IMG/VR virus record: IMGVR_UViG_3300037229_000053
Coordinates: 1 to 45,835 of that record
DNA from: a virus
Reading direction: 5' to 3' (one strand)
DNA: 45,835 nt
In this document: positions 1 through 45,835 of the stretch, one piece after another
How the letters are laid out: every line of letters starts with the position of its first letter
Position numbering within the stretch: the stretch's first letter is position 1
The notes under the pieces: generated by a model
Databases searched by the model: none
What the model was told of the DNA's origin: nothing
The model's input: only the letters and a program-made list of their open reading frames with translations
Made by a program: the position numbers and the translations under genes

Positions 1-227
1 GGTTTTCTCGGTCTGGGTGCAGGGGACATCGGGATCGGCGTCGGCAACGGTGACCATCGATGACCTCCAGCCCATTTTTGCCGAAGCTGCCTACCTCGAT
101 ACGACGGGCTTCTTCAGCTACGTCGGCAATCCCTCCGGGATCGACGGCGATACTGGCAAGTGGGGACCGCAGGATACCGCGAAGCTGATGAATATGGGGA
201 TCGTGCGCGGGACGCTTGCCATCCTCA
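1..227. repeat. Left copy of the contig terminal overlap
   Basis: Bases 1-227 match 45609-45835 at a constant offset of 45608. I count three mismatches: base 4 (T here, C at the right), base 89 (G here, C at the right) and base 100 (T here, C at the right). The same reading frame crosses both copies, so this is best read as an assembly overlap of a circular or circularly permuted phage genome. The mismatches suggest strain variation in the sampled population rather than a fixed terminal repeat. Confidence 0.93.
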
Positions 228-2827: not shown

Positions 2828-3370
2828 CTAAATACGAGCAAATTCTCCGTGAAGCCGCAAAACTGCTATGCGCCTAGCGTCCGCGGCTTGCTCTTTGGTC
2901 TTAAAGAGGCCGAGATAATGGATCGTGTAATCCTTAGTTACCTTCGCGGTCCACTTTCCAGTTTTCGGGTGAAACTGGACACCTGTATATCCGCTGGTGT
3001 TCGTTCTCCTCTTACAAGAGTTTTGGACGTTCTGCGCAGGAGTGGCTGGGCGAAGATTCTGGCGCCGATTGTCCAGCGTATCGCCATTTATGTGGTCGCC
3101 TCTTTTGCCGTCGTTGCAAATGAATCCCAGGACGACTCGATGCATTCCTATTCGACGCTGCTGTTTGATTCCGGTTCGGATATTCCGACGCGCGTAGAAC
3201 GTGCGTGTGCATTTGCTGAATTCAGCGAACCACTTCCACTGCGAGAGATTTTCGTAATCCTCGACAGATACCTTAGCAAATTGGCCCTGAGTGAGGGGGA
3301 TGAGGCGATAATCTGGAAGAGGGCAGGTTTCCTGCTGAATCAGGTTCATGGGATGCCGCTCCAACGGCAT
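2828..3370 (-). CDS. HNH-AP2 homing endonuclease, antisense
   Basis: The 180-residue product carries an HNH nuclease motif (MHRVVLG at about 76-82, GDHINGDTLDNRRQNL at 91-106, with His77, Asp92-His93 and two Asn) and a C-terminal AP2 DNA-binding domain (SGYTGVQFHPKTGKW onwards, about 126-170). Together these are typical of free-standing phage homing endonucleases. It is the only minus-strand gene in the structural region, fills the gap between two virion genes almost exactly and is AT-richer than its neighbours, which fits a mobile insertion. A second ATG 21 bases in (MNLIQQETC) is an equally good start: the first ATG lies inside a possible -10 element. Confidence 0.93.
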   Translation of the reverse strand: MPLERHPMNLIQQETCPLPDYRLIPLTQGQFAKVSVEDYENLSQWKWFAEFSKCTRTFYARRNIRTGIKQQRRIGMHRVVLGFICNDGKRGDHINGDTLDNRRQNLRPATPAQNVQNSCKRRTNTSGYTGVQFHPKTGKWTAKVTKDYTIHYLGLFKTKEQAADARRIAVLRLHGEFARI

Positions 3371-18264: not shown

Positions 18265-19404
18265 ATGCCCACCACCGCAATTCCCGCCCCGCATAAAGCT
18301 GAAAAACAAAGAGTCAAGCTGAAGATGGCCGTACAGGGGCCATCGGGATCGGGCAAGACGTTCGGCGCGTTATCTCTCGCCCGCAATCTCTGGCCCACGG
18401 CAAAGATTTGCCTGATCGATTCGGAGAATGAATCGGCTTCCCTCTACGCCGATTCTTTCGACTTCGATACCATTCCCCTCGGACCACCCTTTGAAACCGA
18501 CCGCTACCTGGAGTGCATCCAGATTGCGGTGGACGGGGGCTACGACGTTGTGATCCTCGATTCGATTACCCCGCAGTGGGATGGCGAAGGCGGCATCCTC
18601 CGGCGCAAGGAAGAGATGGACCGCCGCCCCGGCTCAAACGGGTACGCGAACTGGGCGAGTTTCACCCCGGAGCATGAGCGGTTTAAGCAGGCCCTTCAGC
18701 AATCGCCGATCCACCTGATTGCCACGATGCGGTCGAAGCAGGACTACATCCTGACCGCGAACGACAAGGGCAAACAGATTCCCAAAAAGGTGGGCATGGC
18801 TCCGATCCAGCGGGACCAGATGGACTATGAGTTCACGCTGGTCTTCGATGTAGAGATGGACCACAAGGGGAGCGCGTCGAAGGACCGCACGGGCTTATTC
18901 AACGAGAAGATCGTGGACCTCGCCAGCCCGAAGACGGCGAAGCTGCTGCGCGACTGGATCGATAAGGGGAAGGAGGCACCCGCGCCGGACCCTCCGCAGC
19001 CCACCGCCAACGGAGCGAGTGGGACGGTTACGACGAGCACAGATACGACTACATCGAAGACGATTGGCGACCCCCCTGGACCTTCTGACATAGAAACGGA
19101 GCGCGAGAAGTGGCTGGAGGTCTTCACCGCTGCTGAGCCGGAGCAACTGATGACCGACGTTGCGCCACGCCTGAAAGACAAGGTGGCCGAGTCGCTGATC
19201 CGGTGTGCCGACGCCAATCTGCTGGCGGTCATCTTTTACCTTCTGCCCAATGCAGAGGTGTTCTCCGGGTTCTTTTGCCCGCTCCAGAGAATCGCTGTGG
19301 AGATGGGGCGCAAGGACTTCGTGCAGGCGACGGCGGCGGAAGCGCGGCGACGCGAATACAGCGTGAACCGGCTGGAACACCGCTACGAGAAGTCCCATGC
19401 CTAA
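18265..19404 (+). CDS. Sak4-like RecA-fold ATPase (recombination/annealing), 379 aa
   Basis: Walker A GPSGSGKT at 25-32 and Walker B-like DVVILD at 94-99 sit in a RecA-type core that ends near residue 240 (LRDWIDKGKEAP). A Pro/Thr/Ser-rich linker and a helical C-terminal domain (about 275-379) follow. The pattern matches the phage AAA_24/Sak4 family of single-strand annealing partner ATPases. ATG with AAAGGAGC upstream, first gene after the candidate early promoter. Its end overlaps the Gp157-like gene by 8 bases, a common pairing in phages. Likely acts in recombination-dependent replication or repair. Confidence 0.85.
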   Translation: MPTTAIPAPHKAEKQRVKLKMAVQGPSGSGKTFGALSLARNLWPTAKICLIDSENESASLYADSFDFDTIPLGPPFETDRYLECIQIAVDGGYDVVILDSITPQWDGEGGILRRKEEMDRRPGSNGYANWASFTPEHERFKQALQQSPIHLIATMRSKQDYILTANDKGKQIPKKVGMAPIQRDQMDYEFTLVFDVEMDHKGSASKDRTGLFNEKIVDLASPKTAKLLRDWIDKGKEAPAPDPPQPTANGASGTVTTSTDTTTSKTIGDPPGPSDIETEREKWLEVFTAAEPEQLMTDVAPRLKDKVAESLIRCADANLLAVIFYLLPNAEVFSGFFCPLQRIAVEMGRKDFVQATAAEARRREYSVNRLEHRYEKSHA

Positions 19405-19927
19405 AGCCACACTCTACGACCTGAGCGCCGAAGGCCTCGCCATCTTCGACATGCTCGATGAGGCTCTCGGGGAATTGTCCCCGGAACTGGAAGCGCGGCT
19501 CGACAAACTGATGCTCGAAGGCCCGGAACGGCTCGAAGCAGCAGCGTGTGTGGTTCGCACCCTGGAGACCAACGCCGCGGCCTGCGAGATGGAAGCACAG
19601 CGGCTCCGGGACCGAGCCAAAGCCTTTGACGCCCAAGCCATTCGCCTGAAGGAGCGCATGACGCTGTGCCTCGATACGGCGTTTCATGGCAAGGTGAAGA
19701 CGCCGCTGTTTACGATCTGGACCCAGAAGAGCGCGGACCGCACCATCGCCGATCTGGTACCCGGCGTGACGGCGGAGATTTTGCACAGGGAGCGCCCCGA
19801 TCTGGTGCGGGTCAAGATGGAACTGGACCGCGAGAAGTGCGTGGCCGACTGGAAGGCGAAGAAGCCTCTGCCGGAACTGATCCTTTTCGAGGAGAAGACA
19901 GGCGAGCGCTACACGAGGATCAGGTGA
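19397..19927 (+). CDS. Siphovirus Gp157-like protein, 176 aa
   Basis: Two long helices with a central turn (MLDEALGELSPELEARLDKL, and later AAACEMEAQRLRDRAKAFDA with KERMTLCLD) are followed by a beta segment TPLFTIWTQKSADRTI and a C-terminal ERPDLVRVKMELDREK. This is the Gp157 family layout, reported in phages of Streptococcus and many others and usually next to recombination genes. The exact role is unknown. It overlaps the Sak4-like gene and the next zinc-ribbon gene. Confidence 0.85.
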   Translation: MPKATLYDLSAEGLAIFDMLDEALGELSPELEARLDKLMLEGPERLEAAACVVRTLETNAAACEMEAQRLRDRAKAFDAQAIRLKERMTLCLDTAFHGKVKTPLFTIWTQKSADRTIADLVPGVTAEILHRERPDLVRVKMELDREKCVADWKAKKPLPELILFEEKTGERYTRIR

Positions 19928-21772: not shown

Positions 21773-22419
21773 CCCGTCCAACATTGGACCTTCCCTCTCC
21801 CGACTGGGCCTTTATCGGCAAACTGAACGACGCCCCGGCCGCCACGATGCTCGAAGCCTGTATCCGCGATCTGGACGGCATCGAGAAACAGGTCTTTGCC
21901 GTCCGGGGCCGTGCTCTGCTGATGATGGAGGAGCGCCAGCTATGGAAGCTGCTCACAGACCCTGCCACCAGGGCCCCCTGGCGATCGCTGGACGCCTGGC
22001 TGGCTTCTGCCGCCCCTCACTCCCGCAGCGACTGCTACGCGGCGCGCAGGGCCGTACGGGAGCTGCAGGACGTGCCCTTTGAGACGCTGACCCAGATGCC
22101 CCGCTGCAACGTGGAGCAGCTCAGGAAGGTGTCGAGCGGCGTCCGGGCGCGACCGGAGGTACAGGCGGCGGCGCGGGAACTCCCCGAGAAGGACTTCGTG
22201 GAGAAGCTCAACCGCGAGCACGGGCAGCACCTTGAGAGCCGGAAGCTGGTCCTGATGCCGCCGGCGGGCGAAGCGGAGGAGCTGGAACAGGCTCTCGAGA
22301 TGGCTATGCTGGTCGAAGAATGCAGCACGCGCACCGAAGCGCTGCGCTGCCTGGCTATTTCCTATATTGCGGCGAACTCCCTGGCTTACGAAATCCTGAA
22401 GGGTGCGAGGAAAGCGTGA
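21769..22419 (+). CDS. Hypothetical early protein, 216 aa
   Basis: GTG start overlaps the preceding stop. Mostly helical: residues 35-75 contain the pattern LDGIEKQVFAVRGRALLMME then WKLLTDPATRAPWRSLDAWL, which recurs in phage proteins near replication genes as I remember, but I cannot name the family. The C-terminal half is charged (EKDFVEKLNREHGQHLESRK) and could be a DNA-binding or ParB-like helper. Its stop overlaps the methyltransferase start. Confidence 0.65.
   Translation: MTRPTLDLPSPDWAFIGKLNDAPAATMLEACIRDLDGIEKQVFAVRGRALLMMEERQLWKLLTDPATRAPWRSLDAWLASAAPHSRSDCYAARRAVRELQDVPFETLTQMPRCNVEQLRKVSSGVRARPEVQAAARELPEKDFVEKLNREHGQHLESRKLVLMPPAGEAEELEQALEMAMLVEECSTRTEALRCLAISYIAANSLAYEILKGARKA
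21776..21789. repeat. Palindrome copy 2 (perfect)
   Basis: GTCCAACATTGGAC, a perfect 6-base inverted repeat around CA. It covers codons 3-7 of the gene starting at 21769, close to the start codon, where a bound protein could block transcription. Confidence 0.75.
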
Positions 22420-23258
22420 CAGCGCTGGTCTACGACCTCTATGCAGGTTTAGGGGGCTGGGCGGAAGGCTTCCTCGCTGAGGGCTACGATTGCGTGGGCT
22501 TCGACATCGAGGCGCACGACTACGGGACCGGCGGCTATCCGGGCACGCTGATCCTGCGCGACGTGCGCAGCATCCACGGCTCGGAATTGAAGGACGCAAC
22601 CTGCATCGTCGCCAGCCCGCCCTGTCAGGCTTATAGCTACCGCGCGATGCCGTGGAAGAAAGCCAAAGCGCTACCCCCTCCCGACAACACGCTGTTCAAT
22701 GAGTGCTTTCGCATCCAGCGCGAGGCGAGCGAGGCGGCAGGACACTACATCCCGATGGTGGTAGAGAACGTGCGCGGCGCGCAGAAGTGGGTTGGACGAG
22801 CCAGCGCTCACTATGGCTCCTATTACCTCTGGGGCGATGTGGGGATGGTAGGGAAGCGGGTCATCGCAGGACCGCTTCGGCTTGGGGCGACCGTAGCTCC
22901 GCAGGACTTCACCCGCGTGGCAGGTCAACAGGTCACAAAGAACGGCGGCCGTGGCTCATGGTTCGCTATCGGCTCGCCAGGGCAGTCGACGCTGAGAGGC
23001 AATCCTGACGGGCGCAAAGTGCCAGAGTACTCAGATCCACGTCGCAACGGTGGCAAGGGCGTTCACCTGACTGCACCGCACGAAAATGCTGCCGGCCTAA
23101 AAGAGGGCGGCGACTGGTGGGATAAAGAGTGCCGCAAAACCGGCATGGCCCGTTTCGGCGCCAAATCGAACCAGCGCAAAGCAGCCTCAGCAATGATCGC
23201 CAAGATACCTTTCCCGCTGGCCCAGTATATTGCCCGCTCCTTCCGGGAGCCGCTGTGA
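22416..23258 (+). CDS. C5-cytosine DNA methyltransferase, 280 aa
   Basis: The GTG at 22416, overlapping the previous stop, is chosen over the longer frame. Motif I DLYAGLGGWAEGF (about 7-19) binds S-adenosylmethionine, motif IV ASPPCQAYS carries the catalytic Cys70, and motif VI ENV is at 117-119. The C-terminal PLAQYIARSF region matches motif X. It modifies cytosine in duplex DNA, most likely protecting phage DNA from host restriction. No restriction partner is obvious, but an HNH protein and a Vsr-like nuclease follow directly with overlapping starts. Confidence 0.92.
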   Translation: MTALVYDLYAGLGGWAEGFLAEGYDCVGFDIEAHDYGTGGYPGTLILRDVRSIHGSELKDATCIVASPPCQAYSYRAMPWKKAKALPPPDNTLFNECFRIQREASEAAGHYIPMVVENVRGAQKWVGRASAHYGSYYLWGDVGMVGKRVIAGPLRLGATVAPQDFTRVAGQQVTKNGGRGSWFAIGSPGQSTLRGNPDGRKVPEYSDPRRNGGKGVHLTAPHENAAGLKEGGDWWDKECRKTGMARFGAKSNQRKAASAMIAKIPFPLAQYIARSFREPL

Positions 23259-27245: not shown

Positions 27246-27674
27246 GTGATCGACTGGACGCCAGAACTCGAAGAGTCAATCTGTACCAGGCTGATCGAAG
27301 GCAAATCTCTCCGCTCCATCGCGGGCAAAGACGGAATCCCAGCCGAGTCTACGGTTTACCTGCATATCATTCAATCCACAGCCTTTTCGGAGAAATACGC
27401 ACGCGCGCGGGAAGCGCAGATGGAAGCGATGGCGGCGGATATCATTGAGATCGCCGATGATAGCTCCGGCGACATCGAATTGGATGGCGAAGGGAAGCCG
27501 CGGCAGAACGCTGAGTTTATGAATCGATCACGCCTTCGCGTGGACACGCGCAAGTGGCTGATGTCTAAGCTGGCGCCGAAGAAATATGGGGATAAGCAGC
27601 AGGTGGCTTTGACGGATCCCGAGGGCGGCCCGTTGCGCATCATGAGCACAGTACCGCGCCCGCCTAAGCAGTGA
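27246..27674 (+). CDS. Terminase small subunit, 142 aa
   Basis: N-terminal helix-turn-helix (TRLIEGKSLRSIAGKDGIPA, STVYLHI), a central acidic helical region (ADIIEIADDSSGD) and then SRLRVDTRKWLMSKLAPKKY-GDKQ, which is the hallmark of phage small terminase subunits of the terminase_5/Gp1-like type. It recognises the packaging site and loads the large subunit. It opens the structural region 1.8 kb before the large subunit. GTG start without ribosome site. Confidence 0.9.
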   Translation: MIDWTPELEESICTRLIEGKSLRSIAGKDGIPAESTVYLHIIQSTAFSEKYARAREAQMEAMAADIIEIADDSSGDIELDGEGKPRQNAEFMNRSRLRVDTRKWLMSKLAPKKYGDKQQVALTDPEGGPLRIMSTVPRPPKQ

Positions 27675-27692: not shown

Positions 27693-28019
27693 ATGAGTCA
27701 AGTTGAACGCCCATGTTGGCATTGCGATGCATGCGGTTTTGAGTGGATGCAGGGGCCGACGACTCCCCAGCAATGCGCATCAGCGAAGTGTCGCAGTCGA
27801 AAGTGGAACCAATCTTTTGTCGAGCAGGCCATCGAACGCGGGCGGAAGATTGGGGCTACGGCCGTCTCGATCAATGGGGCTGAATTCCCGATTTCACATC
27901 ATCCTTCCTGCGGGTGCTATCTTTGCAAACCGCCGAAGGGGAGACTGGAGGAGACGCATGGGGGAAGTGAAGGAAAAGCAGGGCCAGCAGGTGCAGAAGA
28001 AGAACCGGCACGTAGCTGA
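27693..28019 (+). CDS. Zinc-ribbon protein, 108 aa
   Basis: Contains CWHCDACGFEW and CASAKCRSRKW, a rubredoxin-like zinc ribbon (CxxC...C...C), and a second cluster CGCYLCKPP. The C-terminal tail is Glu/Ala/Lys-rich. The ATG at 27693 is preferred to the GTG at 27675 because that GTG overlaps the putative -10. May bind DNA or help packaging; not known. Confidence 0.65.
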   Translation: MSQVERPCWHCDACGFEWMQGPTTPQQCASAKCRSRKWNQSFVEQAIERGRKIGATAVSINGAEFPISHHPSCGCYLCKPPKGRLEETHGGSEGKAGPAGAEEEPARS

Positions 28020-28023
28020 GCGG

Positions 28024-28032
28024 TGATATTCT
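28024..28032 (+). promoter_or_regulatory. Candidate extended -10 promoter
   Basis: TG-A-TATTCT, 19 bases before the ATG at 28052, followed by CGGAGGG as ribosome site. A normal short leader here, unlike the neighbouring candidate leaderless starts. Confidence 0.35.
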
Positions 28033-28051
28033 TCTCCCGGAGGGCTGATCT

Positions 28052-28339
28052 ATGGCCAGCACGTTAGGATTCGCGGTAACCATCGCAGCGACGGGGGTTC
28101 CGCAGCAGATCAGCACGGAGGCAGCCTACGCCGCCTACGTGACGGTGCAGAATAACAGCCTGAACTCCATCGCGGTTGGCAAGAATCCGGCCGTGGCGGT
28201 GGGCTCGAACGGGATCCAGATAGCGCCGGCGAACTCCTACACCTTCCCACCGCTGGTGACACGCGGGCATCTGCTGAACTCGATCTGGGTAGTGGGAACC
28301 GCAGGCGATGTGGTTTGGGTGGATGGGGAACGGTACTAA
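28052..28339 (+). CDS. Small structural beta protein, 95 aa
   Basis: Good ribosome site. Beta-rich with Ala/Val/Asn (TAATGVPQQISTEAAYAAYV, IAPANSYTFPPL, VVGTAGDVVWVDGERY), resembling small virion decoration proteins found near packaging genes. No Cys or membrane span. Function is inferred from composition and position. Confidence 0.65.
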   Translation: MASTLGFAVTIAATGVPQQISTEAAYAAYVTVQNNSLNSIAVGKNPAVAVGSNGIQIAPANSYTFPPLVTRGHLLNSIWVVGTAGDVVWVDGERY

Positions 28340-28341
28340 GC

Positions 28342-28878
28342 ATGGAGCGCCCGTCGCCACTGGGTTCGCGCGAGAGCGCGATACTGGAGGCTATGCAGAT
28401 GCACGAGCTGGACCGAGTTGCGGCGGAAACGTTCGTCGACCGATTGCTGGCGGCCTTCGAGAAAGAGAAGCTCGAGGGAGCCGGAAAGCCGCCGCGCGGT
28501 CTGTGGCGCCGTCCCAGCCTATTTAGAGAAGCTATCGAACTCGGCACGGCAGAACCTGTTCCGACCTACGGTCTGACGAAAGATGGCACGCGTTATATCC
28601 TCTCGCGAAGAGCAAGATGCGAGAACTGCAGCCGCTGGCTCATTGATGGAATCGACGATGCAAAATCGCGGTCTGAATATTACCTTACCGGCTGGTGTGT
28701 GCAGTGTCTGGCATCTCATCCATCGAAGGTGAGGGAAGTGCTCAAAGAGCAGGCTGAAGACACGGCATGGCTTGAACAGAATGCCTTGAAGCGGGCCCTG
28801 ACACAGCAAGCGGAATCTCGCCTCCCCCGGCCGTGGTGGAAGCATGCGGTCAATTGGATCCGAATTAAACTGGCATAA
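28342..28878 (+). CDS. Hypothetical protein with zinc site, 178 aa
   Basis: Starts three bases after the preceding stop. Helical N-terminus (ILEAMQMHELDRVAAETFVD), then ILSRRARCENCSRWL and GWCVQCLASHP, a pair of CxxC knuckles, and a charged helical C-terminus. No family recognised. GC-rich like the flanks until about 28500, then AT-richer. Confidence 0.65.
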   Translation: MERPSPLGSRESAILEAMQMHELDRVAAETFVDRLLAAFEKEKLEGAGKPPRGLWRRPSLFREAIELGTAEPVPTYGLTKDGTRYILSRRARCENCSRWLIDGIDDAKSRSEYYLTGWCVQCLASHPSKVREVLKEQAEDTAWLEQNALKRALTQQAESRLPRPWWKHAVNWIRIKLA

Positions 28879-28902
28879 ATACTTGGGTGCGTCACCGTGA
28901 GT

Positions 28903-28919
28903 TGAGGGCTGGGAGCGAT
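28903..28919 (+). repeat. Direct repeat, left copy
   Basis: Seventeen bases, TGAGGGCTGGGAGCGAT, identical to 29075-29091 in the first codons of the large terminase gene. The two copies flank the 44-aa membrane ORF and start 172 bases apart. Confidence 0.85.
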
Positions 28920-28938
28920 ACTGAATGAGGAGAACGAA

Positions 28939-29073
28939 ATGGACGCTGTTGAAAAGCAGGTAGAGCCTCTGCCTGTTGTTGAAATTCGACGAAACCAAGC
29001 AATAGGCATGCTCATTGTCAGCGTAGTCTGGGCTGCGACTGTATTAGTCGTTATTGCCCTTGCCACTCGATGA
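28939..29073 (+). CDS. Small membrane protein inserted before terminase, 44 aa
   Basis: ATG with GAGGAGAACG upstream. Acidic N-terminus (MDAVEKQVEPLPVVEI), RRNQ, then one membrane span (IGMLIVSVVWAATVLVVIAL). AT-richer than the genes around it. It lies between two copies of a 17-base repeat, and its stop overlaps the terminase start. Likely a recent insertion (moron). Confidence 0.65.
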   Translation: MDAVEKQVEPLPVVEIRRNQAIGMLIVSVVWAATVLVVIALATR

Positions 29074-30728
29074 CTGAGGGCTGGGAGCGATTCGCCGCCG
29101 ACCAGCGCGAGGCTGTTGGCCGCGATGTTCGCGCCGAACTGCTGCGCCGAAGGGCGAAGTTCTTTGACGATGTGAGGCGGGCTGCGAAGGATCTCAGCGC
29201 CGGTCGCCAGCAAACGATAGTGCCTGACCTCGGCGACCTCTACACCCCCTACAACTTCCAGGCCGAGTTTCACAAATCGAAGAAGATGTATGGCTTCCTC
29301 GGCGGCTCGGCTGGACCAGGGAAGACGCTGGCGATTCTGATGGAGCAGTTCACCGCCTGCCAGGAATTCAACATCGACGATGGGCCGAGTGTCCATACGG
29401 TCACGTGGCGGCGCACCTTCCCAATGCTGGATGCCACGGTGATTACCCGCTTTCGGGAGACGTTTCCGAAGGAGCTGTACAAGCAGTTCAACTCCACCAA
29501 GAACTTCGTCACATGGAAGAATGGGTCTACAACCCACTTCGGATCCATGCAGTATGAGCACGATGTGTGGAGCTGGCAGGGGCAGTGGTTTCACCAGGCC
29601 TACGACGAACTGCCGGAGTTCACCTTTAAACAGTGGATGGGGACATCGGCGTGGAACCGGTGCCCAGTGAGCGACCAGTGCCGAAAGTATGGCGCTGGCA
29701 ACCCTATCGGGATTGGGGCAATCTTCGTCGAGGATTTGTTCGTCAAAGGTGTCCCATGTAACGGGATGGATGAGGCACAGATAGCCGCGTATGACCCGGA
29801 AGACTACGGCTACTTCCCAGCAACCTACCTCGATAACCCAATCTATGCCAATGATCCGGTGTTCCTGAAGAACCTCGATGCCTATCCGGCGGACGTGCGT
29901 GATGCGCTGAAGAAGGGAATCTGGGGCGCGGCTGGCGGCTACTTCCGCGGCGTGTGGGATGAGAATGAGCACATTTTCGCGGATGGGACGATTGAGCTGC
30001 CAGTGTGGTGGAAGCGCTGGATCAGCGGCAACTGGGGATACTCAGACCCGGCGAGCTATTACAAGCACGCGATGGGCGATCATGGTGAAGTCTACACTTA
30101 CGATGAGCTGTATACAGACCATGAGAACCCCGAACACCTGGCAGAAAGTATCGCGGAATGGGCGCTGGAGAACGGCGAGATGCCGCGGTTTGTCAACTTC
30201 ACTCATTCCTTCGACGCGAACGCCACGAAGCGGACAGCGACCATGGGTGAGGATGCGCGCTCGGTGAATGAGCGGATGCGTCCGATTCTGCAGCGGGCCG
30301 GGATCCCGTTCCCGCAGGCCAGCACGCGCGATAAACTGGGCCGGGACACGCTGATGCGGGAACTGCTGGCCAAGCGGATCAAAACCGGAGAAGACGCGAG
30401 CGGCCATGAGATCGAGCTACCGGGGTGGATGATCTCATCGAGATGCACACAGCTCCGTCGTCTTATCCCCGTCGTCAAGGCGGATGAAAAAAGAGTTGAG
30501 GTAATCGAAAGTCCGGGTGCCGGTGCAGACTCCCCGCTGCAGGGCGCCGGGTACGGGCTGTATGCGATTTTCGGCAGACCGGCGGGCAAACCTCTTGAAA
30601 TTCAGGCGCAGGAGTATTATCGGGGCTTGAGCCCCCGCGCGGACATGACGGCAAAGAGTATCCTGATGAAGAAGTGGCGGCACGAGCACACGCAAAGGAG
30701 GGCCAGCCCATGGGCCACCCGCCAATAG
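29070..30728 (+). CDS. terL: Terminase large subunit, 552 aa
   Basis: Walker A GGSAGPGKT at 78-86 (after KKMYGFL), Walker B-like AYDELPE at 177-183, then coupling and a C-terminal RNase H-like nuclease region with NWGYSDPASYYKHAM and HSFDANATK. The ATPase motor that translocates DNA into the prohead and cuts concatemers. Length is normal for the family. The ATG overlaps the stop of the small membrane ORF. It is followed by small genes and then the portal, the usual head-gene order. Confidence 0.95.
   Translation: MTEGWERFAADQREAVGRDVRAELLRRRAKFFDDVRRAAKDLSAGRQQTIVPDLGDLYTPYNFQAEFHKSKKMYGFLGGSAGPGKTLAILMEQFTACQEFNIDDGPSVHTVTWRRTFPMLDATVITRFRETFPKELYKQFNSTKNFVTWKNGSTTHFGSMQYEHDVWSWQGQWFHQAYDELPEFTFKQWMGTSAWNRCPVSDQCRKYGAGNPIGIGAIFVEDLFVKGVPCNGMDEAQIAAYDPEDYGYFPATYLDNPIYANDPVFLKNLDAYPADVRDALKKGIWGAAGGYFRGVWDENEHIFADGTIELPVWWKRWISGNWGYSDPASYYKHAMGDHGEVYTYDELYTDHENPEHLAESIAEWALENGEMPRFVNFTHSFDANATKRTATMGEDARSVNERMRPILQRAGIPFPQASTRDKLGRDTLMRELLAKRIKTGEDASGHEIELPGWMISSRCTQLRRLIPVVKADEKRVEVIESPGAGADSPLQGAGYGLYAIFGRPAGKPLEIQAQEYYRGLSPRADMTAKSILMKKWRHEHTQRRASPWATRQ
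29075..29091 (+). repeat. Direct repeat, right copy
   Basis: The same 17 bases as 28903-28919, here coding the first residues of the large terminase subunit after Met-Thr. Confidence 0.85.
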
Positions 30729-31093
30729 TAGCGGTAGTCTGCTTCCTGTTGTGCCCGGCCATCGTTCTGGCTGGCGCACTCGTCTCGTCGGCGCGCCGGG
30801 AATCGGTGTGGCGCGAGGCGTACGAACAGAAGACAAATGATCTTCTGGAAGCCACGGAAATGGTCCAGCTTGCGGACAAGGAAATCGCCTTGAGGGACGC
30901 CGATATTGCCACCCGTGAAGCCGAAATCCTGCGTCTGCGCAAAAATGCTTTGACGTCACCGGCAGAAAAGGTGGACAATTCCGTTGTCAAGGCAAAATCC
31001 ACGGCGGATGTGCGTCGCCTCACCGAAGCAGCTTTCGGGCTGGAACTGCGAGAAGCCCTGAATCACCAAGGAGAAGAAGCGCATGATAGCTAA
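30710..31093 (+). CDS. Membrane-anchored coiled-coil protein, 127 aa
   Basis: ATG at 30710 with AAAGGAGGG upstream, inside the terminase end. N-terminal membrane span or signal anchor (VAVVCFLLCPAIVLAGALVS), then a long charged helix (about 30-80, KTNDLLEATEMVQLADKEIA) and a polar tail. Could be a spanin-like or membrane-tether protein. The role is unknown. Confidence 0.65.
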   Translation: MGHPPIVAVVCFLLCPAIVLAGALVSSARRESVWREAYEQKTNDLLEATEMVQLADKEIALRDADIATREAEILRLRKNALTSPAEKVDNSVVKAKSTADVRRLTEAAFGLELREALNHQGEEAHDS

Positions 31094-31514
31094 CGATGGA
31101 ACGAAAGGCATTGGCGGGGTGGCAGTTTCCCGACCGGCCAGTATCCGGCCGCCGGGAAACCTCCTCAGCGTTCCGGCGCACGTCCCCGGACCTGCCGCGC
31201 AACCGCCAGCCCCGCCGCCGCCGACCGCAGCGCAGACCTTCGCGCAGTTACTGCAGGACGAATTGCTCCTGTCGCGCGATCCTCATGTCGCCTCGCGCTT
31301 CGTGGAGCTGCTGGATCAGCATTTCGACGTGAAGCTCGCCGCCCCCGCCGGAGAATGGACACCCGCGCTACCTCCGGGGCACGGGCCGAGTACGCTTCGT
31401 GGCGTGCGCGTCGCTGGAGGATGGAAACCCGATCCCCCGAGACGAGCCGAATCCAAGCCGACCTTACACACTGGCGCCGAAACCTGGACGCCCGCAGTAC
31501 CGAAAGTGCGTTAA
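31083..31514 (+). CDS. Pro-rich hypothetical protein, 143 aa
   Basis: Overlaps the previous gene by 11 bases. Pro/Ala-rich N-terminus (PGPAAQPPAPPPPTAAQTFA), a short helical middle (QLLQDELLLSRDPHVASRFV) and a repeated motif, GEWTPALP near 97 and ETWTPAVP at the end. Not recognised; the two WTPA repeats may be short binding peptides. Confidence 0.6.
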   Translation: MIANDGTKGIGGVAVSRPASIRPPGNLLSVPAHVPGPAAQPPAPPPPTAAQTFAQLLQDELLLSRDPHVASRFVELLDQHFDVKLAAPAGEWTPALPPGHGPSTLRGVRVAGGWKPDPPRRAESKPTLHTGAETWTPAVPKVR

Positions 31515-37468: not shown

Positions 37469-38782
37469 ATGGCAGATGAATTGGAACTGAGCGGAACTGA
37501 GACGGAACTGGATCTCGGCGAGACCACTGAAGCGGAGGTCGAAGCGGGTGATGCGGGTGATGCGGGTCAAGCCGCACCTGCGGGTGATGCGGGTGATGCG
37601 GGTCAAGCCGCACGCTCGACCGGCGACGACTGGAAGACGCTCAAAGAGGTGCTGAAGGACCACCCGGATCTCCACAAGCGGGTGAAAGGCGCTCTTCATG
37701 CCGCCGCGAACCTTGAAAAGCGCTTCCCGGACGGTGTTGCGGCGGTCGAGAATCGGCTGAAACTGCTCTCGCAGCTGGACGACAATCCCGATGACCCGGA
37801 TTATGTGGCAGGATCCACGCCGATTGAGGACGTGATCTCGAACACGATTGCCGAGCGAGGCTTCTGGCGGTCATTCGACACCGCTTTCCAGGCTGGCGAC
37901 CCGGCGATCGTGAATCAGATGGTCGAAGCGAACGGGGAAGCCTTCCAAAAGCTGATCCCGCTGGCTATGGACCGCTTCTCGGAGATGAATCCGGACGGGT
38001 TTTCCTCCTACGTGTGCCGCTCGGTCGCTCCGTTCCTCGAAGCGCAGCAGATTCCCCTCCACCTGGCGCTGCTGGCGCGCGTTTTGCCCGAAAAGTCCGA
38101 CGATCCCGGCCTCCAGACGGTGATTGAGGCGGTGAAGGCTATCCGGGGGACCGTCGAGCAGATTCAAAGCACCGCTAAGAAGCCGATTGAGCCGGCGAAA
38201 GGCTCAGCCGCGGCGAAAACCGAGGAAAGTGGGCAGCAATCGCTCGAAAGCCGGGAACTGGCCGTGACGCACGACGAATGGCTTCGCGAAGTGCGCCCGC
38301 GCAGTGAAAAAGCGATGGTCGACGAGGTTCAGCGTGCCTATCCGGGCAAGCGGTTCACTCCGCAGGAGGTCTCCCTGATTCGGAAGGCTCTGACGGAAGA
38401 AGTGAACGCCCGCACGCGCATCAACAGCGGTTACCAGACCAGGATTCGCGGCTTCCTGAAGGCAAAGAACCGTGCGGCGTACCTGATGACCGCTGAGGGC
38501 GAGCACAAGAAGATCATCCGGGATGCGGTGAAGCGGGCGGTAGATCCGGTGCTGGCGAAGCGTGTCAAGGGCAAAACTAACGCACAACAGCAGCCGGGGA
38601 ACCAGCAGAGGCAACAGGAAGCGGCCCAAACAGCCACGAACGGGAATTTCCGGCGGATTGCGAAGTCGCCCTCGCAGCTTGGGCTTGCGGTGGACTGGAG
38701 CCGCACGGATAACGAGATGTACGCGAAGGAAACGGCGTACATCAAGGGCGAGAAACAGGCGGTGAAGTGGGGAAAGGCTTGA
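37469..38782 (+). CDS. Scaffold-like protein, 437 aa
   Basis: AGGAGATAAACG upstream. Very acidic N-terminus (ELSGTETELDLGETTEAEVE) with a 12-residue tandem repeat, helical centre and a basic C-terminus ending EKQAVKWGKA. Highly charged and Gln-rich, with no Cys-rich or enzymatic motif except a single VCRSVAPF. Between portal and major capsid genes, where scaffolds are normally encoded. Role is inferred from order and composition. Confidence 0.75.
   Translation: MADELELSGTETELDLGETTEAEVEAGDAGDAGQAAPAGDAGDAGQAARSTGDDWKTLKEVLKDHPDLHKRVKGALHAAANLEKRFPDGVAAVENRLKLLSQLDDNPDDPDYVAGSTPIEDVISNTIAERGFWRSFDTAFQAGDPAIVNQMVEANGEAFQKLIPLAMDRFSEMNPDGFSSYVCRSVAPFLEAQQIPLHLALLARVLPEKSDDPGLQTVIEAVKAIRGTVEQIQSTAKKPIEPAKGSAAAKTEESGQQSLESRELAVTHDEWLREVRPRSEKAMVDEVQRAYPGKRFTPQEVSLIRKALTEEVNARTRINSGYQTRIRGFLKAKNRAAYLMTAEGEHKKIIRDAVKRAVDPVLAKRVKGKTNAQQQPGNQQRQQEAAQTATNGNFRRIAKSPSQLGLAVDWSRTDNEMYAKETAYIKGEKQAVKWGKA
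37544..37613 (+). repeat. In-frame tandem repeat (36-base period)
   Basis: Two 34-base copies (37544-37577 and 37580-37613) with a 36-base period, coding GDAGDAGQAAPA and GDAGDAGQAARS. Each copy itself contains GCGGGTGAT repeats. Probably a slippage-prone, variable-length acidic linker in the scaffold. Confidence 0.9.
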
Positions 38783-42996: not shown

Positions 42997-45835
42997 GTGG
43001 GGATCAACACCGCAGGCGCGATAGCGGCGCCGCTCACCGTCTGGGGGAGCTGGGTAAGCGAAGTGTCCCCGGACGCGCTGCCGGAGAACGTCTCGGCTGA
43101 CAATCAGGACGTGGTATATGGGCCGGGGTTCGTCGCTTCCCGGCCTGCGCTCGACACCATCGCCGGGATCACCTTCCCCGCTGTGGGCGGCATCGTTCCA
43201 ACGGCGGTCTACGGCAAGAGCTTCCTTCTGCCCACGCTTGCCATCAGGAACCTCTATTTGGACTCCGCGGGCCGGATGTGGGTGGAAGACTTCACGAATG
43301 CCCCCGGCGTCATCACTCTCCTGTTCCAGTCCACTCCGGGCAGTTTGTGCCGCTCCTCGACCTTCCAGGGGCGCGAGTACATCGCCATCTCGGACGGTCT
43401 CCACGGAACCGAAGCGCCGCTGGTATGGGACGGAACGAACATGGACCGTGTGACGATCACCGGCCCTGGAGCTCCGCCAGCCATCTCAAACCTGCAACTT
43501 CCGGCGGTACCGATGGCGGCTTCCGGGAACACGCTGACCCGGCTGAACAACGTAGTGAGCTGCGTGACGGCCGACCCGCACAATCTGAAAGTTGGCTACC
43601 AGGCGCTGATCGCCAATGTTCCTGACTCAAACGCCACCACGGTGAACCAGACGAAGCAATCATTCGCCCAGAATGTGAATGGATCCTACTGGGACTTCAA
43701 CTCGGGACAATGGAGAAGCCTCTTTAATCCCGGCACTTCTCCCCTGTCGGCATTTGTCGCCGAAGACTTCGTTTTCAACATCCCCGCCGGGGCCACAATT
43801 CTTGGCATCGTCATTAATTTTGGGGTGCTGTCGCAATCGGCGACCGCCGGCACAGTGGCAGAGGTGGCGCTCTGGAATTCCTCCGGGCAGGTAGGGACGG
43901 CGAAAACCCCAGGGACCGCCATCATCACCACCCCGGTCTATACCCCCTACGGCAGCGCTTCGGATACATGGGGAGCATCGCTGACGCCATCGGTTGTGAA
44001 CGACCCGACTTTCGGGTTTGCGATATCAATTGATGCGGATGGAGTCAGGGATTTTCTGCAAGCTCCGCTGTCGATGACGATTTATTACACCTTATCGGGT
44101 TCGGGAACGGTCGCCACGGTCAGCTCCATCGTTATCGCCAACGAAGTCAATCCGGGGCTCGCGCTGGTGACCACGACCCAACCCCACGGCCTGATCCCCG
44201 GCATCAGCATCTCGCTGGTCGGGGTAGAGCCCTATGCGGTGGGGGGTGGCCTCGCGGCGGCTGAATGGTCTTCGGGAAAAACCACGCTGACGACGGTGAG
44301 CGATCATGGCTTACTTCCGGGGGCCGTGATTCAGGTGGCTGGCGCCACGACATCGACCGCCACGACAGCTTTCAGCTTCAACGGAAATTTCACGGTGCTG
44401 GAGGTTCCCTCTCCCAACCAACTCACGTATTATCAGTCTCCAATCACCGCCGCCGATCCCGATGTTATCGACGCCACCGCGAGTACAGGCACCGTTTCGA
44501 TTGCATGGCCGATTCCGAGCGACACGCCCACTCCCACTTATTTCGAGGTTGATTCCTGCCCCACCCCGACCACTTTCTACATCCCCGTGGACTATGCCGA
44601 CGGGACGTGGAACACGGGGAGCGTGGGTTTCATCTGGGAAGGGACGTTCTACGTCATCCAGGTCCAGAGCGCGACAGAATTCAGCTATTACCAGCCTGGT
44701 CCAAATGGGGCGACGACCGCGGTGGGGACCGTTACCCCCTTCGGGCAGGCTGCGCCGGGTCTTCATCTGGTGCAGGTGCTGTGGCTGACGCGCCAGGGCA
44801 TCATCCCCGCGCCGTCGCCGTTCCTGCAGGCGATCCTCAACGGAGGGCAGTATGTTCAGGTCGCCAACATCCCAATCGGGCCTCCAGGGACGATTGCGCG
44901 CATCCTGGCCTTTACCGGCGCACAGCCCGACATTCCCGGCATTCTGCCGCCGTTCTACTACATCCCGGTTCCTGCGTTCCTCGAGGGCCAGGTCGTGTCC
45001 ACAGCGACGGTCATCAACGACAATACGACCACCGGAGCGGTGCTCGACTTCTCGGACAACACCCTCTATGCGGCCACCGGCATCAGCATTCCCGGCAACA
45101 ATCTGGCGAACCAGGTCGTTCTGGACGGGGCGCTGGGCTTCAGCTCCTACCTCTCCCGGCTGGGAAGCTGGGGGCAGCGCAACGTGATCCAAAACCTCCT
45201 GAACCTCGGCTTCGAGGGCGGCTACACCGGCGGCGGCGCGCCGGGAACCGGGCTTGCTTACCCCCTTGGATGGACTGCCGGCACGGGAACGCTGGTGAAT
45301 GCGCTGTTCGGCATGGCCTGGCAAGTGCTGATCGGCGTTACCCCGGCGGAAAATGGCATGATCTCGCAGCCGGCCGCCACCGACGCCTCTGGTGACCCGA
45401 TCTTTATCGGCAACCAGAGTTATTCGATCCGCTTCCGTGCGTTCACCAACGGCGGTGACGGGGTGGGGCTGACCGTGTGGGCTTCTCTTACCAGCGCTGC
45501 GACAGGATTCAGTTCCACTGCCGAAGTTCCTGTCGGCAATTCCACGCTGCCGCAATGGTTTGAGGGCGATTTCAGCCTGAGCCTGCCGACAGAGATTCCC
45601 CCCGACCTGGTCTTCTCGGTCTGGGTGCAGGGGACATCGGGATCGGCGTCGGCAACGGTGACCATCGATGACCTCCAGCCCATTTTTGCCGAAGCTCCCT
45701 ACCTCGACACGACGGGCTTCTTCAGCTACGTCGGCAATCCCTCCGGGATCGACGGCGATACTGGCAAGTGGGGACCGCAGGATACCGCGAAGCTGATGAA
45801 TATGGGGATCGTGCGCGGGACGCTTGCCATCCTCA
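42997..45835 (+). CDS. N-terminal part of the 1299-aa tail nozzle-like protein, runs off the contig
   Basis: GTG at 42997 (GINTAGAIAAPLTVWGSW) opens a frame with no stop to the window end; it continues at base 2 and ends at 1288. Early residues SADNQDVVYGPGFVASRPAL resemble the start of podovirus nozzle or stabilisation proteins (P22 gp10/T7 gp12 type). Three beta modules share the pattern HGL-x-PG (TTTQPHGLIPGISISLVGV; TTVSDHGLLPGAVIQVAGA; and a weaker PHNLKVGYQALIANV). The size (1299 aa) is well above the usual 500-800, suggesting fused fibre-like domains. Confidence 0.78.
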   Translation, partial: MGINTAGAIAAPLTVWGSWVSEVSPDALPENVSADNQDVVYGPGFVASRPALDTIAGITFPAVGGIVPTAVYGKSFLLPTLAIRNLYLDSAGRMWVEDFTNAPGVITLLFQSTPGSLCRSSTFQGREYIAISDGLHGTEAPLVWDGTNMDRVTITGPGAPPAISNLQLPAVPMAASGNTLTRLNNVVSCVTADPHNLKVGYQALIANVPDSNATTVNQTKQSFAQNVNGSYWDFNSGQWRSLFNPGTSPLSAFVAEDFVFNIPAGATILGIVINFGVLSQSATAGTVAEVALWNSSGQVGTAKTPGTAIITTPVYTPYGSASDTWGASLTPSVVNDPTFGFAISIDADGVRDFLQAPLSMTIYYTLSGSGTVATVSSIVIANEVNPGLALVTTTQPHGLIPGISISLVGVEPYAVGGGLAAAEWSSGKTTLTTVSDHGLLPGAVIQVAGATTSTATTAFSFNGNFTVLEVPSPNQLTYYQSPITAADPDVIDATASTGTVSIAWPIPSDTPTPTYFEVDSCPTPTTFYIPVDYADGTWNTGSVGFIWEGTFYVIQVQSATEFSYYQPGPNGATTAVGTVTPFGQAAPGLHLVQVLWLTRQGIIPAPSPFLQAILNGGQYVQVANIPIGPPGTIARILAFTGAQPDIPGILPPFYYIPVPAFLEGQVVSTATVINDNTTTGAVLDFSDNTLYAATGISIPGNNLANQVVLDGALGFSSYLSRLGSWGQRNVIQNLLNLGFEGGYTGGGAPGTGLAYPLGWTAGTGTLVNALFGMAWQVLIGVTPAENGMISQPAATDASGDPIFIGNQSYSIRFRAFTNGGDGVGLTVWASLTSAATGFSSTAEVPVGNSTLPQWFEGDFSLSLPTEIPPDLVFSVWVQGTSGSASATVTIDDLQPIFAEAPYLDTTGFFSYVGNPSGIDGDTGKWGPQDTAKLMNMGIVRGTLAIL
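45609..45835. repeat. Right copy of the contig terminal overlap
   Basis: Matches bases 1-227 with mismatches at 45612, 45697 and 45708. The frame of the giant gene is uninterrupted through either copy. Confidence 0.93.

Follow-up and report, generated by a model that had tools for sequence, protein, structure and literature searches.

A repeated large-terminase start in a viral genome as a probable mosaic joint that added a small ORF

In the viral record IMGVR_UViG_3300037229_000053 (IMG/VR; 45,835 bases, the whole of which is called the window here), the start of the gene for the large terminase subunit is present twice, with a small ORF between the two copies. With a probability of about two in three, this repeat is a mosaic joint, made when DNAs recombined out of register over a handful of common bases, through which the small ORF was added beside the terminase gene. 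Gene exchange by way of very short common sequences is usual among bacterial viruses. A scan of viral contigs for the terminase returned 41 relatives, the close ones being L002, L003 and L004 (78–80% identity in the best segment). The features of the region are as follows.

27246–27674, + strand: small terminase subunit (PHROG 1482, E 3.6e-38)
28052–28339, + strand: conserved gene (95 aa) that borders the slot described below on the left, ending in GGGGAACGGTACTAA (recognized by DNA identity to relatives)
28342–28878, + strand: 178-aa ORF (ORF178), first cassette, its 5′ part common to L002
28897–28919, + strand: left copy, a putative decayed terminase start (exact part 28903–28919)
28911–28924, + strand: GGGAGCGATACTGA, proposed switch point (13/14 bases as at the 3′ end of the L003 95-aa gene)
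28927–28932, + strand: GAGGAG, likely ribosome site of ORF44 (from the sequence)
28939–29073, + strand: ORF44, second cassette, a 44-aa protein with one hydrophobic stretch (ORF list, hydropathy)
29070–29105, + strand: 5′ end of the terminase gene, 97% identical to L002, holding the right copy (29075–29091)
29070–30728, + strand: large terminase subunit, 552 aa (PHROG 979, E 1.7e-17)

The repeat and the enclosed ORF

The exact repeat (TGAGGGCTGGGAGCGAT, 17 nt) occupies 28903–28919 and 29075–29091 at a spacing of 172 and flanks a 135-base ORF, as an earlier note on this DNA had stated. The right copy begins with the third base of codon 2 of the terminase ORF and ends with the first of codon 8, which bears out the claim that it represents the large terminase start; profile and motif agree on the identity of that ORF, as its translation also contains a Walker A sequence (GSAGPGKT), and Pfam gave no match at E 0.1. 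The left copy sits in the 60 nt that separate the upstream ORF (stop at 28878) from ORF44. It is not covered by any + strand ORF of at least 30 aa in the ORF list of the window, so that the earlier view of a copy without coding role stands for the + strand; minus-strand ORFs do cover it, as they do much of the region. With one extra T allowed, the left copy lengthens to GTGAGT(T)GAGGGCTGGGAGCGAT (28897–28919) and comes to look like an entire terminase start that has decayed.

Dinucleotide shuffles of the window (n = 100) contained a repeated 17-mer anywhere in 14 cases and within 300 nt in none; the real window holds two such close pairs, the terminase-start pair and a tandem repeat at 37544–37613, the latter lying within an ORF and built of units of the GCGGGTGAT type. 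When the starts of 159 window ORFs (at least 90 aa) were scored for upstream copies, the terminase ranked top with a score of 34, followed by 29, 28 and 28. Scores near 28 thus arise by chance, and the score of 31 found for L002 is therefore only moderately above that level.

The ATG of ORF44 is preceded by GAGGAG at a distance of six bases, and its end overlaps the terminase start as ATGA. Its G+C content is 48.9%, as compared to 60.5% for the window, where 2.1% of 135-nt stretches are equally low; the enclosed ORF is hence AT-rich and has its own likely ribosome site, both as previously claimed. Residues 24–42 reach a Kyte-Doolittle value of 2.75 over 19 residues, by which ORF44 is predicted to be a small membrane protein with one transmembrane stretch, in agreement with the earlier description of a small membrane ORF between the copies. 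Small ORFs with hydrophobic stretches are also present at L041:2740–2952 and L002:2079–2264, directly before the terminase or a terminase-start copy, and the site may favour small membrane proteins. No relative of ORF44 was found in nine related records at E 1 (where an empty answer proves little), among 24 candidate stretches of viral contigs (0 confirmed), in 50,697 phage records, or in its own record besides itself; PHROG and Pfam gave no transposase match.

These searches bear on the idea that ORF44 plus 28920–29074 is a small mobile element and the 17 nt a long, duplicated target site, which is quite improbable. The repeat does flank ORF44 exactly and ORF44 is AT-rich, but the insert (28920–29074) has neither inverted repeats nor a transposase, a second copy was not found in its own record, the nine related records, viral contigs or phages, and in L002 and in L009/L019 (see below) repeats of different lengths flank unrelated cargo. 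A transposon- or MPME-like insertion was likewise rejected, as terminal inverted repeats and a recombinase are lacking and the unit was found nowhere else in these searches.

A variable slot before the terminase gene

The 95-aa gene lies upstream of the terminase in L002, L003 and L004 (92% DNA identity to L002 and L003, 74% to L004) and is without match in PHROG and Pfam. What lies between the two genes differs: in L004 the slot is empty (last base of the 95-aa gene at 634, first of the terminase at 635), in L003 it consists of 49 nt, in L002 of a 61-aa ORF, an N6/N4-type DNA methyltransferase (Pfam E 5.3e-13) and a remnant of ORF178, and in the window of ORF178 and ORF44. The borders are kept, with 92% identity between window and L002 at 28015–28344 and 94% at 30917–31199, and ORF44 is absent from L002, L003 and L004, which retain both. 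Since borders are kept while contents change, the two genes enclose a variable slot for cassettes.

The comparison also lends partial support to the earlier reading as an insertion scar. The addition of a small ORF with a working terminase start kept is supported, because the relatives have other genes or none in place of ORF44; the self-contained 172-base unit is not, because L002 has a terminase-start copy beside different cargo, in effect a repeat without the ORF, which the earlier note had named as an outcome against its reading, and L003 and L004 have neither.

ORF178 shares only its 5′ part (28386–28511, 82%) with a relative, L002; 1 of 25 candidate stretches in viral contigs was confirmed and belongs to the L002 contig, and a weak PHROG match (E 0.0072) is to DNA-binding proteins. 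A homing element in the window slot was rejected, as PHROG and Pfam gave no such domain in ORF44 or ORF178. Annotated phages contributed terminase relatives of less than 60% identity only (214 records) and no DNA match, and in bacterial genomes 10 stretches fitted a search pattern, none of which encodes a relative.

Exchange also concerns the terminase itself. The first 36 nt of the window gene are 97% identical to L002, no DNA match follows until 29289, and identity is 82% from there on; the codons after 29105 to about 29288 differ from L002–L004. From the abrupt loss of the L002 match after 36 nt it follows that the 5′ part of the terminase was exchanged as well. L002 and L003 agree at 49/75 bases after the terminase start, and downstream both are equally near to the window. 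At 29106–29288, the N-terminal part after codon 12 is about 36 residues longer than in L002.

Terminase-start copies in relatives

The first 60 bases of each terminase start, together with 20 upstream bases, were aligned to up to 1500 bases before it in 39 records, the window included, with 300 Markov shuffles each. A copy at 0/300 shuffles was obtained for four of the 39: the window, L002, L009 and L019. As L009 and L019 share one joint, these represent three separate joints, spread over two clades with about 70% identity between their terminases. The copies of L009 and L019 match at 38 and 37 of 39 bases, respectively, and the copy in L002 (ATGACTGAGGGCTGGGA, at 2264) is the start assigned to the methyltransferase. 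The remaining 35 records, L003 and L004 among them, have no copy at this level; low shuffle counts in L034 (7/300), L036 (10/300) and L025 (15/300) were treated as chance. The counts are to be read with some constraints: the start taken for L042 (last ATG, 2770) is probably incorrect, another assignment being GTG 2965, L020 and L027 have too little upstream sequence, L028 has no readable motif, several upstream stretches are short, and near-duplicates are frequent among the clade-2 records. One further contig, L076, came from a second scan based on alignment. The 17-mer itself occurs in three viral stretches, one of which is the L002 contig, and the other two, L044 and L045, diverge after the 17 bases. 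Judged from sequence, terminase-start copies mark cassette joints in 4/39 records.

The base that follows the ATGA-type start is of some interest, the copies after ORF178 reading (A/G)TGAG and those after a small ORF ATGAC, in the window and in L002; this one base is suggestive of cassettes and terminase starts travelling together. It also bears on replication template switching or slippage, which might have duplicated the terminase start within one genome and brought the ORF along. A short direct repeat at 172-nt spacing is what such an event could leave, but slippage supplies no new ORF, and the base differences between the copies sort with the neighbouring genes, instead of the copies being identical upstream; this origin is improbable.

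A joint with candidate parent types in the second clade

In the second clade, five contigs (L029–L033) have a 67-aa ORF followed by the terminase, and seven (L005, L007, L008, L024, L025, L035 and L036) a 55-aa ORF followed by the terminase. L009 and L019 combine these in the order 67-aa ORF, terminase start, 55-aa ORF, terminase. To the left of their joint, 265 nt are 97.0–99.6% identical to the four L029-type contigs compared, and to the right 160 nt are 96.2% identical to the five L005-type contigs compared, with 50–63% in the crossed comparisons. The terminase start of L030 (GGTGTAGAGCG) and the start of the 55-aa ORF of L005 (ACAGTAGAGCG) both hold the 8 bases GTAGAGCG where the joint lies; there is thus a different parental arrangement on each side, and the switch falls within a short shared sequence. 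The two types likely represent the parents of L009/L019.

The order may be reversed, L009/L019 being older and L029 having formed by deletion between the copies, and the start of the 55-aa ORF could be an altered terminase start, which would also make the L009/L019 arrangement the older one. Extended to all joints, this becomes a history of losses, in which an older genome held several cassettes behind terminase-start-like translation leaders and relatives lost some of them when copies recombined. Loss between the 39-nt copies of L009/L019 gives the L029 arrangement exactly, and the inserted ORFs of L002 and L009/L019 have the left copy as their coding start; yet the origin of the first copies is left unexplained, L003 and L004 have no copy at all, and the left copy of the window is non-coding, so that such a history is unlikely.

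The same two contigs speak to a metagenome assembly artefact fusing two strains. The window is a single metagenome record, and no second record has its joint. Against this stand the natural ATGA coupling at the ORF44–terminase junction and the analogous joint in L009 and L019, two contigs whose sample numbers differ, which make an artefact very improbable.

The joint in the window

After GGGAGCGAT, the left copy continues ACTGA and there resembles the 95-aa gene at its 3′ end (TACTGA). The window sequence GGGAGCGATACTGA matches the end of that gene at 13/14 bases in L003 (GGGAGCGGTACTGA) and at 12/14 in L002, the bases that back this match beyond the terminase-start sequence being five only (ACTGA). 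When GGGAGCGATACTGA was slid over L002–L004, with stretches holding the terminase start left out, 4 of 1892 positions reached the score, all of them overlapping the end of the 95-aa gene; the next best (11.0 versus 11.5) lies at the margin of the terminase start in L002. L002 shows the left parent type in part, and the switch is read from these 13/14 bases; the joint of L002 itself has no clean switch at the same bases. Searches with the 17-mer, EGWERFA, WVDGER(Y/F)-stop, the 95-aa protein and ORF44 found no contig with the order 95-aa gene, ORF44, terminase, and brought up nothing but unrelated places and the three clade-1 contigs already known.

In the course of events that we infer for the mosaic joint, including its parents, precise switch point and enzymes as well as the making of ORF44, an ancestor with the order 95-aa gene, ORF178, terminase would have met another phage with the order 95-aa gene, small membrane ORF, terminase. 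An exchange at about GGGAGCGRT would then have fused the ancestor's terminase start with the other phage's 95-aa gene at its 3′ end, and the joint in that other phage would read GAGCG(A/G)TACTGAATGAGGAG. The product would comprise a useless terminase-start stub (the left copy), the new small ORF and a whole terminase (with the right copy); the small ORF would be read from its own ribosome site and hand on to the terminase through the ATGA overlap. Annealing proteins tolerant of short homology are a plausible agent, and two genes that may be relevant are encoded in the window.

18265–19404, + strand: AAA_24 ATPase, weakly Sak4-like, possible annealing recombinase (Pfam AAA_24, E 2.2e-16; PHROG 1366, function unassigned, E 5.1e-73; PHROG 124, Sak4-like, E 2.2e-4)
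19397–19927, + strand: Gp157/Mu Gam-like end-protection protein (Pfam Sipho_Gp157, E 1.2e-17; PHROG 253, E 4.4e-20)

Sequence alone cannot separate template switching from recombination of the annealing type. A more tentative and rather doubtful extension is that the terminase start near its E-R codons (GAGCG) is a standing exchange point, upstream of which small genes stack up, thanks to its likeness to sequences at the slot borders, while the stubs record the order of acquisition; if so, cassettes of similar types would follow each other in opposite order in the window and in L002.

Further observations on the terminase genes and the record

In 13 of 37 motif-readable records (L003, at 3058–3090, L011, L013, L019, L020, L024, L025, L029–L033 and L076), a stop lies inside the terminase at codons about 28–30, with extra in-frame bases before a conserved FQ. 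The context is DPY-CCT-TGA-CCT-FQ in 12 of these and DPY-CCA-TAA-GTG-CCT-FQ in L003, and the frame after the stop is open for 492–866 codons in 13/13. Bypassing in T4 gene 60 is a precedent for ribosome hopping, and the proline codons flanking the stop would yield a normal terminase if the ribosome hopped between them; restart at GTG (L003), a dead gene and readthrough are the alternatives. Separately, L028–L037 have a large insert in the terminase Walker A (GPGK, then LLPL...; L034:1762–4413), which looks like an intein; in L034, the one tested, it contains a LAGLIDADG homing-endonuclease domain (Pfam E 3.5e-8).

The ends of the window (5–227 and 45613–45835) agree at 221/223 bases, for which reason the record is probably a complete genome, circular or terminally repeated, with few end differences. 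At 22320–23258 a C-5 cytosine DNA methylase is encoded (Pfam E 1.2e-7).

Comparison with known systems

The window offers a readable case of how phages may gain small orphan genes beside an essential gene without breaking that gene; the visible parental arrangements and the 8-base switch of the second clade bear on whether phage mosaic joints need shared sequence, and terminase-start stubs could serve as markers for further events. As far as the relevant portion of PMC3029335 goes, the closest counterpart is gene 68 of the mycobacteriophage Island3 at its junction with Brujita, a small orphan gene present in one phage and absent in the relative, flanked by a duplicated stretch of about 50 bp from the 3′ end of gene 67, and read there as recombination between short similar sequences. 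The window likewise has a small orphan gene with a duplicated part of the adjoining gene at its flank; unlike in Island3, the duplicate comes from the terminase 5′ start, has a shorter length (17 nt exact) and recurs at several joints. The short conserved boundary sequences treated in the same portion of that paper resemble the present case in that a sequence at a gene border serves as a point of module exchange, but here it belongs to the coding region of an essential gene instead of an intergenic linker, and the core of the switch is 8–9 nt. MPMEs, given there as about 439 bp with inverted repeats, are comparable as very small inserts near a gene start, whereas the window insert has no inverted repeats. 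According to the part of PMC3945230 on phage annealing proteins, Rad52-like enzymes act on short or diverged homology, and truly illegitimate events are probably much rarer; the window phage fits such relaxed recombination in encoding an AAA_24/Sak4-like ATPase, while a switch of 8–9 nt would be shorter than usual for the Rad52-like enzymes. The kind of event is thus already known from Island3 gene 68 and, with no claim that terminase-start copies are unreported, what the present case adds is the mild novelty of an apparently recurrent hot spot.
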